The notes under the pieces were generated by a model. The model searched no databases and was not told where the DNA came from. It worked only from the letters and a program-made list of their open reading frames with translations. DNA of 39,198 bases from OCS155 cluster bacterium AG-349-E07. Its GTDB lineage: Bacteria > Actinomycetota > Acidimicrobiia > Actinomarinales > Actinomarinaceae. The DNA lies in contig QCCZ01000005.1 in NCBI GenBank assembly GCA_003281085.1, positions 1 through 39,198 on the forward strand, given 5' to 3'. Positions 2,677 to 9,157 of this stretch are shown here, one piece after another. How positions within the stretch are numbered: position 1 is the stretch's first letter; each line of letters begins with the position of its first letter. The translations under genes were made by a program, and so were the position numbers.

Positions 2677-3265
2677 AATGTACAAGTTTTTTCTTTATTT
2701 TTGTTTTTGATTTTTTGTCAATTTCAATATTATCTTCTACTCCTGCAGTTATCATTCCAATAATTTTATATGTATTTGGAATATTTAACATTTTATGAAT
2801 GCCGTCCCTATCTGTATTGTGTAATCCCATAAAACCACTTTTTAATTCTTGTTCTTCAATTAATAACATACAATTCATCATTGCTGCACCTGCATCTACA
2901 TACCAATAAGGAATATCCCAATCTTTTGAACTTACGCTTTTAATCTTGTCAGGACTCTCGTATCTCTGGTGGTATGCATTCTCATTTAATAAGATAAAAA
3001 ATAAACAAATGGAATTTGATATCCACTTTGGCTTTCCTTTTTTGATATACTCCAGCTCATTAAAATGTTCAGCAATGTTCTTAATGTTTTGTTTATTAGT
3101 TACTTGCAAAATTTCTATTCCGCGCGAAAACCCTGCAGTAGGAATTTTTACACTAAATTTTGAAATATTTTTTAATTTTTCAGGGTCAAATTCGATTTTT
3201 TTATAATTTCTTACAACTTTTCTATTTAATATAAGGTTTTCTAGGTAAGTGAAATCTTCACTCAT
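2657..3265 (-). CDS. Nitroreductase-family FMN oxidoreductase
   Basis: The 202-residue protein has the layout of the FMN-dependent nitroreductase fold: RKVVRNY near residue 15 (like the RRSVR flavin-phosphate motif), IPTAGFSRG near 41-49, a central helix DAGAAMMNCMLLIEEQELKSG (flavin/dimer helix), and a late strand YKIIGMITAGV. These enzymes reduce nitro, quinone or flavin-type substrates with NAD(P)H. The true substrate is unknown. Its start codon overlaps the leuB stop by 8 bases, so it is probably translated from the same message, but no BCAA pathway step needs it. Confidence 0.8.
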   Translation of the reverse strand: MSEDFTYLENLILNRKVVRNYKKIEFDPEKLKNISKFSVKIPTAGFSRGIEILQVTNKQNIKNIAEHFNELEYIKKGKPKWISNSICLFFILLNENAYHQRYESPDKIKSVSSKDWDIPYWYVDAGAAMMNCMLLIEEQELKSGFMGLHNTDRDGIHKMLNIPNTYKIIGMITAGVEDNIEIDKKSKTKIKKKLVHYEQFNK

Positions 3266-4325
3266 TTAAATTAGATAATTCTTCAACTACTGAATCACCA
3301 ACTTCTTCAGTAGACATTCCCATTTTCCCAGCTGAAAGAGAATCTAATTTAATTGCCGTATTAATGATTGCTTTTTCAATGTCGGATGCATATTTTTCTT
3401 CACCTAATTCTTTGACCATCATTGCACTAGCTCCTATACAAGCAAGAGGATTAATAATATTTTTACCTGTATACTTTGGTGCAGATCCTCCTATAGGTTC
3501 AAACATTGATGTTCCTGAAGGATTGATATTCCCGCCTGCAGCGATTCCCATTCCACCCTGAATCATTGCACCTAAATCAGTGATAATGTCTCCGAACATG
3601 TTATCTGTAACAATGACGTCAAACCATTCTGGATTTTTAACCATCCACATACAAATTGCATCTACATGTCCATAATCAGTTTCAATTTCAGGATAATCTT
3701 TTGCAACATCATAAAAAATCCTTTCCCATAAATCATGTGCATAAGTTAGTACATTTGTTTTTGCACAAAGAGTAATTTTTTTTCTATTGTTGTTCTTTGT
3801 ATATTCAAAAGCGTATTTTATGCATCGGTGAATTGCATGATATGAATTGATTGATTCTTGAGTTGCTATTTCATTTTCAGTTCCATAATGAATATAGCCT
3901 CCGGCTCCAGCATATAATCCTTCAGTATTTTCTCTAACAACAATAAAATCAATATCTTCAGGCTCTTTGTTGGCAAGTGGGGTTTCTACACCGGGATATA
4001 AAACGACTGGTCTGAGGTTAATATATTGGTCAAACTCTTTCCTAAGTTTGAGAAGAATACCTTGCTCTAATATTCCAGGTTTTACATCTGGGTGGCCAAT
4101 TGCGCCGAGAAGTACCGCATCAGAATCTTGAAATTGTTTAATATCATTATCTGTGACTAAATCTCCAGTTTTTAAATATCTATCTCCACCAAGATCATTC
4201 TGAGAGAAATTGAATTGAGTATCGTAATAAGATGAGGTTTTAACTAGTACTTTAACTGCTTCATTGACTACTTCAGGACCTGTACCATCTCCAGGGAGAA
4301 GTGAGATATTAAAAGTTTTACTCAT
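3258..4325 (-). CDS. leuB: 3-isopropylmalate dehydrogenase
   Basis: LeuB oxidises and decarboxylates 3-isopropylmalate with NAD+ in leucine synthesis. The 355-residue protein shows the beta-decarboxylating dehydrogenase landmarks: [11 protein letters not shown] at the N-terminus, [14 protein letters not shown] (substrate arginines), [12 protein letters not shown], the catalytic Lys in CAKTNVL, the metal-binding [12 protein letters not shown] aspartates, and [14 protein letters not shown] for NAD. The short 'LRK..D.Y.NLRPV' form fits actinobacterial and deep-branching LeuB. Tartrate dehydrogenase-like paralogues share this fold, but linkage to leuA and ilvBNC decides the role. It overlaps leuA by 4 bases (ATGA). 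leuC and leuD are not in the window. Confidence 0.94.
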
Positions 4326-5812
4326 TTATTTAATGCATTTAGAAATGATTCAACTGAACCTTGAACTACATCTGTAGATACAGCACGTCCTTGTTTCATC
4401 AAATGACCATCATTTACTATTGTAACGATTTCTGCAGTTGCATCTGAACCTTTAGTAATACTTTCTACACGGTAATCAATCAATGTTGCATCAGAATCTA
4501 ATATCTTCTTAACCGCAGTGAATGCTGCATGAATCATTCCGTCACCAGTTGCCTCTTCTGTCACTTCATTTTCGCCTACCTTAAGTGTTACTTTCGCAGA
4601 TGCATATTCATCCTTACTATTTACAGATACAGATATTAACTTTGTTGAATTTTCTTTGTTTTCAACTTGTCCAACAATAGCTCTTAATTCATTTTCAACT
4701 ATCTCACCCTTTCTGTCTGCAATTTTCTTAAAAGTATCAAATGCATTACTAAATGAATCATCATCAAGGCTTATATTTAAATTGTCCAAAGCATCTTTAA
4801 ATCCAGCGCGACCAGAATGTTTACCTAAAATTATTTTTGCTTCTTGACCTACAGAGTCTGGGGACATTATTTCGTAGGTCATAGTATTTCTTAAATAACC
4901 ATGTTGATGAATTCCAGACTCGTGACTGAATGCATTTTTTCCAACAACCGCTTTATTGTATTGAACAGGATATCCTGTTAATTTAGAAACTAACCTAGAG
5001 GTTTCAAAAATTTCAGTAGTTTCTGCTTTTATATCCACTCCAAACTGATCTTGTCTTGTTTTTATTGCCATAATGATTTCTTCTGTTGAGGTATTACCAG
5101 CTCTTTCCCCAATACCATTAATTGCACCTTCTATTTGTCTTGCTCCTGCGGTTATTGCAGTAAGAGAGTTAGCAACTGCTAATCCAAGATCGTTGTGACA
5201 ATGAGTAGAAATAATGACATCTTCATTACCGCCCTTAACATCTTCATATACCGATTGAAGAAGGTCTAGATAATCCTTAGGAGTTGCATAGCCTACTGTG
5301 TCAGGAACATTTATAGTTGTAGCGCCCTCTTCCACAGCAATTTTTAACACTTCTATTAGGAAGTCTTTATCGGTTCTTGTTGCATCTTGTGCAGAAAACT
5401 CAACATCTTGACATAATTTTTTTGCATACTTTACAGATTCTTTTGTGTCTTTAAGAATGTCTTCCTTTGTCTTTCGTAGCATATGTTCCATATGAATTTC
5501 TGATGTAGAGGTAAAGACATGAATCCTTGAATCTTTAGCGACTTTGATTGCTTCCCAAGCTCGTTCAATATCATCTGGATGACATCTTGCAAGAGATGCA
5601 ATTGTAGAATTTTTAATATTTTTTGCAATTAGATTAACACCTTCCCAATCACCAGGGGAGGATGCGGCAAATCCTGCTTCAATTACATCAACTTTAAGCT
5701 TTTCTAACTGCTGTGCTATTAAAAGTTTTTCTGACGGAGTTAAAGCAATACCCGGACTTTGCTCTCCATCTCGAAGCGTAGTATCAAATATTACAAGTCT
5801 ATCTTCACTCAT
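4322..5812 (-). CDS. leuA: 2-isopropylmalate synthase
   Basis: This enzyme condenses acetyl-CoA with 2-oxoisovalerate, the committed step of leucine synthesis. The 496-residue length and motifs fit the bacterial type-1 Leu[14 protein letters not shown] at the N-terminus, a TIM barrel, the metal-binding [21 protein letters not shown] and the second-domain motif HESGIHQHG. Residues from about 390 form the regulatory (leucine-feedback) domain ending near [26 protein letters not shown]. Many actinobacteria use the longer type-2 enzyme of about 600 residues, so this form is worth noting. Citramalate synthase is less likely because of the leuB neighbour and intact regulatory domain. The start overlaps ilvC by 4 bases and the end overlaps leuB by 4. 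Confidence 0.93.
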
Positions 5813-6825
5813 TTATCTTTTTTAACGTCTTTAGCATCCAAAAAAGGCATCATATTTCTTAAATTTTTTCCAATTGCTTCAATCTGATGAGCTGAAGCCT
5901 CTTCTCGCTTTTGATTGAGAAATGGCGCACCTTCTCTTGCTTGTGACATCCACTCTTTTGCAAATGCACCAGATTGTATTTCTTCTAGTACTTTTTTCAT
6001 TTCATTTTTTGTTTCACTTGTAATTATTCTTGAACCACGTGAAAAGTCACCGTATTCAGCTGTGTCTGAAATTGAATGCCTCATCCACTCAAAACCACCT
6101 TCATACATTAAGTCAACAATTAATTTAACTTCATGAAGAGTTTCAAAGTAGGCACTTTCAGGCTGGTATCCAGCTTCTACAAGTGTTTCGAAACCATTTC
6201 TAATCAATTCTGTTAACCCACCGCAAAGAACTACTTGTTCACCAAATAAATCAGTTTCTGTTTCTTCCTTAAAAGTTGTATTTAGAATGCCAGCACGTCC
6301 ACCACCGATAGCTGAAGCGTATGAAAGAGCAATTTCATGCGTGTTTCCACTTGAGTCTTTTTCGACAGCTACTAAGCACGGCATCCCACTTCCTTCTTCA
6401 TAAGTTCTTCGTAATAAATGACCTGGACCTTTCGGCGCAACCATACCAACAGACAAATCTTCTCTTGGAATGATCTCATTAAAATGAATATTGAATCCAT
6501 GGGCAAATAGTAAAGTTGCACCTTCTTTTATATTGTCTGCAATCTCAGAGTTATAAACATCTGCCATAACCTGATCTGGAAGAAGCAACATTACAACGTC
6601 TGCACCAGACGCAGCATTTGCTAAGTTTTCAACTTTTAAACCCATTTCTTGTGCTCTTGAGTATGATTCTGAATCCTCTCTAAGACCAACAGTAACGTCT
6701 ACACCTGAATCATGTAAATTTAATGCATGTGCATGACCTTGGCTACCAAATCCAATAACACTAACTTTTAAATCTTTAATTAGATTTTTATCAATTGATG
6801 AATCGTATATAATTTTTGTTTCCAT
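5809..6825 (-). CDS. ilvC: Ketol-acid reductoisomerase
   Basis: IlvC rearranges and reduces acetolactate or acetohydroxybutyrate to the dihydroxy acid in valine and isoleucine synthesis. The 338-residue length is that of a class I (short) enzyme. The NAD(P)H site [17 protein letters not shown] begins near residue 26, followed by [12 protein letters not shown], whose serines would suit NADPH. The domain-2 metal ligands sit in [13 protein letters not shown] and [13 protein letters not shown], and the SDTAEYGD segment is conserved. A strong ribosome-binding site (AGGAGAG) lies just before the ATG; the 8-base gap to ilvN is one of the few real gaps in this operon. Confidence 0.96.
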
Positions 6826-6833
6826 ATCTCTCC

Positions 6834-7307
6834 TTATAAATTTGTTTGAATAGCAATCCTTCCACCTCTAACCATTTCAATTATTCCAAACGGTTTCATT
6901 AAATCCTCAAATTTATTTAATTCTTTTGATGAGCCTGTAAGTTCAAAAACTGCATAATCTTGGCCTACATCTACCGAATTAGCTCCTGAGAGGCTAGCTT
7001 TTTCAATTACAGATGTTTGGCTATCTTTATTTATTGACACTTTTAATAATAAAACTTCAGTTTCTATTGTCATCTCTGGATCTAGCTCAACAATTTTTAT
7101 AACATTAACTAATTTATTGAGCTGTTTTTTTACTTGTTCTACTGCATCAAGTTCAGTAACGATCGTCATTTTTGATCTTCCTTCTATGTGAGTAGGTCCT
7201 ACAGACAAAGAATTTATATTAAAGCCTCGTCTTGAAATAGTAGATGAGACTCTAGCTAGTACACCAGGTTTATCTTCAACCAAAACTGATAAAATTCTTT
7301 CACTCAT
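6834..7307 (-). CDS. ilvN: Acetolactate synthase small (regulatory) subunit
   Basis: The 157-residue protein is the ACT-domain partner of IlvB and carries valine-type feedback control. The N-terminus [28 protein letters not shown] is the classic ACT signature with the effector-site loop, followed by [16 protein letters not shown]. The second half matches the IlvH/IlvN C-terminal domain ending in [14 protein letters not shown]. The length is standard (about 160-170). Its start overlaps the ilvB stop by 4 bases, which fits one-to-one coupled translation of the two subunits. The symbol ilvH is used for the same protein in some genomes. Confidence 0.94.
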
Positions 7308-9016
7308 AAATTTTTCAAATCTTCTTCATTTAAAATTATTTGGTCGTTGCTACCACCAGCTGGGACCATAGGAAATACCATATCTTCAGGATCTACTACA
7401 CAGTCAATTAACACAGGTTTATCATTTATTTTTAACATTTCCAAAAAGACATTTTTTACTTCTGATTTTTTAGTCATTCTTAAACCTACAGCACCCATTG
7501 ACTCAGCTAGCTTTACATAATCAGGAACTACATGACCTAATTCAGATGCAGAGAATTTACTATTGTAAAATATTTTTTGCCACTGTCTAACCATTCCATG
7601 ATTACCATTGTTAAATACTACAATTTTGACTGGTATATTTTCTGTTGATGCAGTAATCAATTCTTGACAAGTCATTTGAAAACAACCATCTCCATCTAAA
7701 GCTAGCACTAATTTTTCAGGATATGCAGTTTTGGCACCAATAGCTGCAGGTAATGAATACCCCATAGTTCCAAGACCCCCTGAATTTAGCCAAGTATTTG
7801 GTTTAGTAAAATTCCAATGTTGCGAAATCCACATTTGGTGTTGTCCAACACCTGATACAACAATTGCCTCTTCTCCAGTTAAATTTTGTAGCTCCTCTAA
7901 AACAAACGGAACTTTCAAAGGACCATTTTCGTTTTGATTATAAGAAAGTGGAAATTCATTTTTCATACTGTTTAATTCATTTATCCAATTTTCAGTATTA
8001 AGTTTTGTATCTCCAAGAGCATTAATAAGACCTAACATTACGCTCTTTGCATCACCAACTATAGGCACTTGAGCTTCTCTTACTTTTCCAATTTCAGCAG
8101 GATCAATATCAGCATGAATTACTTTTGCATTCTGTGCAAAAAATGAAGGATTAGCAGTTACTCTATCATCAAATCGAACACCAATAGCAATGAGCAGATC
8201 TGATTTTTGTATAGAAGTTGTAGCTGTATAGTTTCCATGCATTCCAGGCATTTCTAAACATAAATCATGACCGTCAGGAAAAGCACCTCTACCCATTAAT
8301 GTTGTAACAACAGGAATGTTAAATTTAGTTGCTAAGTCAAAAAGTTCTTGGTTTGCTTTGGAGTGAATAATTCCGCCACCAACATAAAGTATTGGTTTAT
8401 TTGAATTTTTAATTAAGTTGGCTGCTTGCTGAATCATTTTTGGATTTGGTTCTAATGTAGGCTTGTATCCAGGTAAATCAAGCGGACCCGGTTCAACCCA
8501 ATCAGATTTTTGATTTAAAATATCCTTTGGAATATCAATTAAAACAGGACCAGGCCTTCCTGAAGTTGCAATATACTTTGCCTCTTTTAACACTTGGGGT
8601 ATTTCAGAAGCATCCGTTATTAAATAGTTGTGTTTTGTAGCAGCCATAGAAAGCCCCACAGTGTATGCCTCTTGAAAAGCATCATTACCAATTGCTTCAG
8701 AAGCTACTTGACCAGTAATAGCTAACAGAGGAGTGGAATCCATCAATGCATTTGCTAAAGGAGTTATAAGGTTTGTAGCTCCAGGTCCAGAAGTGGCGAT
8801 TACAACACCAAGTTCGCCAGTTGATTGTGCATATCCCTCTGCCATGTGGCCAGCACCTTGTTCGTGTCTTGCCAGAATATGTCGTATAGGACTATCGTAT
8901 AACGGATCATATGCAGGTAAGATTGCACCACCAGGCACTCCAAAAACTGTAGACACATTAAGGTACTCCAAACCTCTAATAACTAATTCTGCACCTGTAA
9001 GTTGTTCTTTATTCAT
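7304..9016 (-). CDS. ilvB: Acetolactate synthase large (catalytic) subunit
   Basis: IlvB is the thiamine-diphosphate and FAD enzyme that makes acetolactate from pyruvate (or acetohydroxybutyrate with 2-oxobutyrate), the first common step of valine, leucine and isoleucine synthesis. The 570-residue protein has the catalytic Glu52 in RHEQGAGHMAEGYA, the ThDP/Mg motif GDGCFQMTCQELITA ending with NNGNHG near residues 440-470, and the QWQKIFY segment typical of true AHAS rather than other ThDP enzymes. The ATG at 9016 is preceded by GGAG on the minus strand (9033-9030), with a rather long 13-base spacer. It lies 27 bases downstream of an intrinsic terminator and leader-peptide gene, so expression is probably set by attenuation. 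Confidence 0.96.
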   Translation of the reverse strand: MNKEQLTGAELVIRGLEYLNVSTVFGVPGGAILPAYDPLYDSPIRHILARHEQGAGHMAEGYAQSTGELGVVIATSGPGATNLITPLANALMDSTPLLAITGQVASEAIGNDAFQEAYTVGLSMAATKHNYLITDASEIPQVLKEAKYIATSGRPGPVLIDIPKDILNQKSDWVEPGPLDLPGYKPTLEPNPKMIQQAANLIKNSNKPILYVGGGIIHSKANQELFDLATKFNIPVVTTLMGRGAFPDGHDLCLEMPGMHGNYTATTSIQKSDLLIAIGVRFDDRVTANPSFFAQNAKVIHADIDPAEIGKVREAQVPIVGDAKSVMLGLINALGDTKLNTENWINELNSMKNEFPLSYNQNENGPLKVPFVLEELQNLTGEEAIVVSGVGQHQMWISQHWNFTKPNTWLNSGGLGTMGYSLPAAIGAKTAYPEKLVLALDGDGCFQMTCQELITASTENIPVKIVVFNNGNHGMVRQWQKIFYNSKFSASELGHVVPDYVKLAESMGAVGLRMTKKSEVKNVFLEMLKINDKPVLIDCVVDPEDMVFPMVPAGGSNDQIILNEEDLKNL

Positions 9017-9042: not shown

Positions 9043-9068
9043 AAAAAAAAACCTCCCGATTTGGGAGG
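9043..9068 (-). terminator. Intrinsic terminator of the ilv attenuator
   Basis: On the minus strand, CCTCCC (9068-9063 side) pairs with GGGAGG (9057-9052 side) around a 5-base loop. The 6-bp all-paired GC-rich stem is followed at once by nine T residues (9051-9043). It lies between the leader peptide and ilvB, with no gene ending before it other than the leader peptide, so it would stop transcription ahead of ilvB unless prevented. This is a transcription attenuator arrangement. Confidence 0.85.
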
Positions 9069-9092
9069 CGCTCATCACAGCAAAATGAGCGC
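9068..9092 (-). promoter_or_regulatory. Pause-type hairpin overlapping the leader-peptide stop codon
   Basis: GCGCTCAT (9092-9085 on the minus strand) and ATGAGCGC (9075-9068) form a perfect 8-bp stem with a 9-base loop. The first base of the 5' arm is the last base of the leader peptide's TAG stop, so a ribosome at the Leu codons or the stop would cover this arm. The 3' arm abuts the terminator stem. I see no obvious antiterminator pairing that would sequester CCTCCC, so the exact switch is unresolved. A partial alternative pairing exists between leader codons 7-10 and the CTGTGATGAG segment. Confidence 0.65.
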
Positions 9093-9142
9093 TAAATAAG
9101 TAATAGCACTAATACTGAAATGAATACAGCTAAATTTTTCAT
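9092..9142 (-). CDS. ilv operon leader peptide (MKNLAVFISVLVLLLI)
   Basis: A 17-codon frame on the minus strand encodes MKNLAVFISVLVLLLI and ends in TAG. Ten of its 16 residues are Leu, Val or Ile, and the last seven in a row are branched-chain (VLVLLLI), using several different Leu and Val codons. It lies directly ahead of a terminator and ilvB. This is the hallmark of leader-peptide attenuation for branched-chain amino acid operons: low charged tRNA would stall the ribosome on the codon run. There is no ribosome-binding site; a -10 element ends 7 bases before the ATG, so the message is probably leaderless. Leader-peptide control of ilvBNC has been reported in Corynebacterium glutamicum. Confidence 0.82.
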   Translation of the reverse strand: MKNLAVFISVLVLLLI

Positions 9143-9149
9143 TAAAATA

Positions 9150-9157
9150 ACTATAGT
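9150..9157. promoter_or_regulatory. Palindromic -10 element shared by ilv leader (minus) and queG (plus)
   Basis: The 8-mer ACTATAGT is its own reverse complement, so it gives a TATAGT hexamer on each strand. On the minus strand it ends 7 bases before the leader-peptide ATG, which predicts a start of transcription at or next to that ATG. On the plus strand it predicts a start about 7 bases upstream of the queG ATG at 9172. I see no convincing -35 element on either side. The two transcription units diverge from this single site. Confidence 0.6.

Follow-up and report, generated by a model that had tools for sequence, protein, structure and literature searches.

A compact, widely conserved form of leader-peptide attenuator very probably precedes ilvBNC-leuAB in Candidatus Actinomarina

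Does the short region upstream of ilvB in a 0.95 Mb genome, whose nearest relatives are Candidatus Actinomarina genomes, act as a ribosome-mediated attenuator, and how might a hairpin that barely overlaps a terminator prevent termination? The window, i.e., the whole stretch of 39,198 nucleotides analyzed here, is contig G000:C5 of this genome. On its minus strand, a -10 box, a leader open reading frame (ORF), a hairpin (P1), an intrinsic terminator (T), and ilvB-ilvN-ilvC-leuA-leuB follow one another, and queG and ilvD have the opposite orientation. The gene for the large subunit of acetolactate synthase, ilvB, occupies positions 7304–9016 with its ATG at 9016, and ilvN, ilvC, leuA, and leuB lie downstream at 3258–7307; these NCBIfam assignments confirmed the operon named in the initial annotation. 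The module measures ~100 nt from the leader ORF through the terminator. The terminator had been correctly placed just before ilvB, but the interval, counted as 27 bases, is 26 nt (last T at 9043).

The leader ORF, MKNLAVFISVLVLLLI, has 16 codons at 9092–9142 of the minus strand, with its ATG at 9142 and a TAG stop codon at 9094–9092. As first described, 10 of the 16 residues are Leu, Val, or Ile, and the final seven are VLVLLLI. This composition had been called far from chance. The chance of ≥ 10 such residues among 15 in one frame is ~0.001 (binomial, from composition), which would be weak evidence when taken alone, and it is the conservation in 30 loci that decides the matter. Complete upstream regions were available for 30 Actinomarina loci, and every one keeps the frame with its codon run, the TAG, P1, T, the spacing, and the -10 box in the comparison that the initial annotation had proposed. 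A frameshifted or non-BCAA (branched-chain amino acid) leader ahead of an intact ilvB, which it had named as the contrary case, occurred in none of them: the indels were confined to one species that lacks exactly one codon (frameshifts, 0/30). Eight further named contigs, some of the same species, had the same ORF traits.

The codons themselves appear to be constrained. The distinct Actinomarina leaders have 15–16 codons, 8–10 of them for Leu, Val, or Ile, and always end in TAG, even though this triplet accounts for 18% of the stops in this genome. Leu-Val-Leu occupies residues -6, -5, and -4 from the stop in every Actinomarina species, and is encoded in all leaders by TTA or TTG, then GTG, then CTA or CTT. 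GTG makes up 8% of the Val codons in this genome; in the leaders it was observed 23 times against 3.8 expected, with GTA at 15 against 14.9 and GTT at 0 against 22.7. The bias between GTG and GTT, together with the invariant, genome-rare TAG, points to selection on the RNA and on the codon that is read. The outgroup leaders are enriched in GTA (77 vs. 5.8 expected) and CTT (37 vs. 8.7 expected), both reported as control codons in Corynebacterium glutamicum (PMC11857589).

The initial annotation had suggested that the peptide is translated from a leaderless message. The sequence ACTATAGT (9150–9157, both strands) is a perfect palindrome that matches the -10 consensus; its TATAGT (9155–9150, minus strand) ends 7 nt 5' of the leader ATG, and the same bases on the plus strand read TATAGT, 14 nt before queG. 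The leader mRNA is probably leaderless, given that every one of the 30 Actinomarina loci has the box 7 or 8 nt from the leader ATG. Across 439 kb of this genome, with 164 genes that have intergenic starts, -10-like boxes peaked 6–8 nt before the start codons, with 27 boxes at those three distances vs. ~1.7 per position elsewhere; therefore, leaderless or near-leaderless mRNAs look common in this organism, and the suggestion gains support. In the outgroup leaders, the peak lies at 6–10 nt, and Shine-Dalgarno-like motifs are few (7/59). An upstream ATG in L110 was rejected as a leader start, since it lies 1 nt past the -10 box, 5' of any plausible transcript start, and out of frame. All 30 Actinomarina loci keep the palindrome, and in 25 of them queG, on the opposite strand, lies 14 nt from it; of the remaining five, at least one has an in-frame ATG farther upstream that masks the same spacing. 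From this arrangement, ACTATAGT is likely to be a bidirectional promoter for ilvBNC-leuAB and queG-ilvD. When the same 439 kb was screened for more leaderless leader peptides, the ilvB leader and two unconvincing cases were obtained. Contig C1 of this genome may hold a further leaderless ORF (~28849, plus strand; L115): MQKYNIVNVVKYINM, of 15 codons, which has a strong terminator and lies upstream of a 431-aa ORF that resembles isocitrate lyase (by eye only).

Two hairpins follow the leader codons, as the initial annotation had noted. P1 (9092–9068, minus strand) is an 8-bp hairpin, GCGCUCAU/AUGAGCGC, that starts at the G of the stop codon, with arms GCGCTCAT at 9092–9085 and ATGAGCGC at 9075–9068 in the DNA; it is our proposed antiterminator. 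The predicted terminator (9069–9043) consists of GCCTCCC-AAATC-GGGAGGT (9069–9051), a seven-pair stem, and nine T (9051–9043). The initial annotation had found no clear antiterminator pairing with the CCTCCC arm, which needs correction: in the perfect-stem search, P1 and the base of the terminator have two nucleotides in common, G9069 and C9068. Beyond these two basal bases, folding in any ribosome state gave no competing partner for this arm. An alternative pairing had also been overlooked, between region 1 (AGUGCUA, 9110–9104), within the Leu-Val-Leu codons, and region 2 (UAGCGCU, 9094–9088), the stop codon plus the beginning of the P1 5' arm; here, region 1 would be the 5' arm of an anti-antiterminator.

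The fold z-score was -3.7, and compensatory changes occurred at 10 of the 14 consensus pairs of P1 and T (39 sequences). The arms of the terminator change together in L112 and L113 (CCTCCTT/AAGGAGG). In the perfect-stem search, the gap between P1 and T was -2 in 24 of the 25 Actinomarina leaders, and another stem was chosen in the exception. In Actinomarina, the pairing of regions 1 and 2 was favored when compared with synonymous recodings (mean z -1.8; 12/21 at or below 0.05). The distance from the start of AGTGCT to the stop is 16 nt in one clade and 10 nt in another, and a third has the motif at both distances; in all three it can still pair with the same AGCGCT. An anti-antiterminator that includes leader codons is thus found in Actinomarina and not in the Acidimicrobiia outgroups, and the idea of an ancestral trait gained no support, because the outgroup leaders are less structured than their synonymous recodings (z +1.4).

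We then consider how far the module extends. A BCAA leader followed by a terminator was found at 96 of 110 ilvB loci, 61 of them outside the genus and mostly in Acidimicrobiia. In most of the 96 leaders, P1 starts 0–3 nt past the first base of the stop codon. According to RNAfold, the end of P1 is separated from T by 0 nt in 25/25 distinct Actinomarina leaders and by 0–6 nt in the 61 others, in which T lies 13 to 143 nt from ilvB; outgroup gaps of 7–17 nt from the perfect-stem search were discarded as an artifact of interrupted stems. A covariance model trained solely on ilvB leaders matched 166 of the 198 Acidimicrobiia genomes and, in a sample taken across the phylum, 64 of 297 genomes, and found a single copy in the whole assembly of this genome. 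Four records, three labeled Bifidobacterium breve and one Gammaproteobacteria (L055, L068, L071, and L009), carry an ilvB of the Acidimicrobiia or Actinomarina type and are probably mislabeled records or contaminated metagenome bins.

In relatives, the module also precedes other genes. The leaders before citramalate synthase (cimA, TIGR00977; six checked) end in IIIIL, IIIIA, FIIIP, TIVIT, IIIID, and TIIIT, and so carry III or IIII except for L185, which has only IVI; those before leuB (3-isopropylmalate dehydrogenase) end in VVITT, VIIIE, and IVIIS, that before leuA in LLLLM, and that before leuS in LLLT. With Ile runs before cimA and Leu runs before leuA and leuS, the codon run follows the product of the gene, and this match is the best evidence that the codons act as the sensor. 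The Acidimicrobiia genes cimA, leuA, and leuB at L164–L172, L185, L188, and L190–L192 thus appear to be preceded by attenuators of this design as well, of which no description was found in the searched literature. One genome has the leader MKEISAPTATLLLT on two contigs (L173 and L174), one copy lying before leuS; the second contig ends shortly past the terminator. Literature searches combining leader peptides with Acidimicrobiia or citramalate synthase, and Actinomarina with leaderless, found no paper in the library searched, and the Actinomarinales genome paper nowhere mentions leaders or attenuation.

The elements, their conservation, the covariation of P1, and the match in relatives between codon run and gene product are established by these comparisons. 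The conserved BCAA frame, the codon bias, the invariant TAG, and the compensating changes in P1 support the leader-peptide attenuator proposed in the initial annotation, and the Ile-run and Leu-run leaders of relatives agree with it. We consider it likely that the region attenuates transcription by way of the translating ribosome, sensing the charged tRNAs for Leu and Val (possibly also Ile), and that it works as follows. The RNA would start at or beside the leader ATG. With no ribosome, region 1 would pair with region 2, P1 would be blocked, and T would form and end transcription. When amino acids are ample, the ribosome would reach the TAG and cover the 5' arm of P1, so that T again forms and transcription ends. 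When amino acids are scarce, the ribosome would stall at Leu-Val-Leu, the sixth to the fourth codon ahead of the stop, hiding region 1 and leaving region 2 free; P1 would then form and capture the lowermost bases of T, so that read-through by RNA polymerase into ilvBNC-leuAB may follow.

To follow these states, and in line with the earlier proposal of folding the leader with and without its 5' arm covered, partition functions were calculated for 23 distinct leaders with a 27-nt ribosome footprint masked; the values below are medians of predictions only. Without a ribosome, P1 had a value of 0.01 and the bottom GC pair of the terminator 0.99; with the ribosome at the stop, these were 0.00 and 0.99. 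With the A site 4–6 codons before the stop, P1 rose to ~0.9 and the bottom pair fell to 0.37–0.39; the values were 0.81 and 0.98 at 3 codons, and 0.07 and 0.99 at 2 codons. Ribosomes at the regulatory codons and at the stop are thus predicted to give different folds: P1 appeared only with stalls 3–8 codons before the stop, and T was weakened mainly at 4–6, the codons of the invariant Leu-Val-Leu. Some leaders, including L087, retained 0.83–0.86 of the bottom pair even when stalled. The overlap of P1 and T, which is only 2 nt long, counts against the proposed mechanism, and altered ilvB leader codons in Streptomyces coelicolor have been reported to be without effect on regulation (cited in PMC1262725).

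In equilibrium folds of the outgroups, T was 1.00 in nearly every ribosome state and was not mutually exclusive with P1. Simple equilibrium competition is therefore not a sufficient account of the family as a whole; the kinetics of cotranscriptional folding would have to be invoked, or else steric interference from a hairpin that lies flush with the terminator. One rival explanation keeps the sensing of the peptide as proposed and lets P1 counter T without base-pair competition, the flush hairpin either blocking closure of T in the RNA exit channel or acting on RNA polymerase itself. The 0–6 nt between P1 and T in the 61 outgroup leaders, at widely differing distances from ilvB, would fit this, as would an outgroup T that P1 leaves unaffected at equilibrium even though P1 is strongly conserved and covarying. 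Nothing direct speaks against such an effect, although the 2-nt overlap in Actinomarina does weaken T in equilibrium folds; we regard this explanation as possible but doubtful. We hold equally tentatively a broader version, in which a leaderless module (BCAA run, TAG, hairpin, and flush terminator) common to Acidimicrobiia and Actinomarina has been reused before ilvB, cimA, leuA, leuB, and leuS, its hairpin defeating the terminator by abutting it rather than by taking its stem. No description of antitermination by a flush hairpin was found in the leader-peptide attenuator literature examined.

Alternatively, P1 could be chiefly a pause hairpin that lets the ribosome catch RNA polymerase, with the short overlap incidental. 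That role would suit its position, immediately past the stop and shortly ahead of T, and the finding that besides T no other structure is strongly conserved, but a pause alone gives no reason for T to fail during starvation, and the pairing of regions 1 and 2 in Actinomarina would also be expected to cause pausing; we therefore judge this improbable. It is very unlikely that the hairpins form a metabolite- or protein-binding element instead of a ribosome switch: P1 and T are conserved, and in some Firmicutes ilvB is under the control of a ppGpp riboswitch (PMC10272879), but the loops vary freely, the sole fixed single-stranded part is coding, and Rfam 15 gave no match at the gathering threshold in the window or in 20 outgroup loci, and nothing credible at relaxed thresholds. 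Hardly any credence is left for a constitutive terminator beside a chance hydrophobic ORF, or for a small membrane peptide that has a function of its own, since, although the peptide is short and hydrophobic and composition alone does not exclude this, its N-terminal half varies freely while the stop-proximal codons, TAG, and hairpin arms are fixed, and in relatives the run differs according to the gene that follows.

Returning to the ribosome-mediated attenuator, our results suggest that BCAA sensing by the ribosome has very probably been kept, in ~100 nt, by a marine bacterium that is free-living and highly streamlined. They would also extend actinobacterial BCAA attenuation to a whole class, with the sensed residue switching to Ile at citramalate synthase and to Leu at leuA and leuS, and they pose a testable question left by earlier work on actinobacterial ilvB leaders, namely how a barely overlapping hairpin prevents termination.

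The general features of attenuators are present here: a short ORF rich in codons for the end product and a predicted intrinsic terminator between that ORF and the first gene. In the classic trp/ilv model of Escherichia coli, the position of the ribosome on the leader codons picks alternative RNA folds and hence termination. The classic antiterminator takes the 5' arm of the terminator, whereas here two bases at most are taken. The initial annotation had thought that the switch may differ from this model, which is partly right, the overlap being only 2 nt here and nearly absent in relatives. The predicted succession of anti-antiterminator, antiterminator, and terminator follows the three-hairpin logic of the C. 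glutamicum ilvBNC attenuator (PMC11857589), base-for-base homology not being implied. Also like that system (PMC11857589; Corynebacterium ilvB-II, PMC10272879), the Actinomarina module has a BCAA leader peptide of similar length (15–17 codons in Corynebacterium). In C. glutamicum, the transcript begins 1 nt from the start codon of the leader, the overlap between antiterminator and terminator is short (GCC there, GC in Actinomarina), and its control codons, CUU and GUA, are those favored by our outgroup leaders (PMC11857589). Unlike in C. glutamicum, P1 of Actinomarina begins at the stop codon and contains no leader codons, the anti-antiterminator is a short helix of 6–7 bp, and the module is only ~100 nt. 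In the ilvB-II consensus, P1 spans most of the upstream ORF (uORF); because P1 starts at the stop codon here, the module works like ilvB-II but is not filed under it.

The Mycobacterium tuberculosis ilvB1 attenuator (PMC13236596) shares a BCAA uORF, a GUA regulatory codon, and a terminator before ilvB1; with its 166-nt leader and short terminated RNA, it has been tested by experiment, whereas the Actinomarina attenuator is predicted from sequence. Seliverstov et al. (2005; PMC1262725) predicted ilvB leaders with terminators in Corynebacterium, Mycobacterium, and Streptomyces and left the mode of regulation unclear; their systems likewise have a BCAA ORF and then a terminator before ilvB, and a leucine leader before leuS in Streptomyces, but no cimA or leuB cases were reported. 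Based on these comparisons, the control is very probably of a known kind, that of the ilvB leader-peptide attenuators of Corynebacterium and Mycobacterium, and what is new is its unusually compact and widely conserved form.
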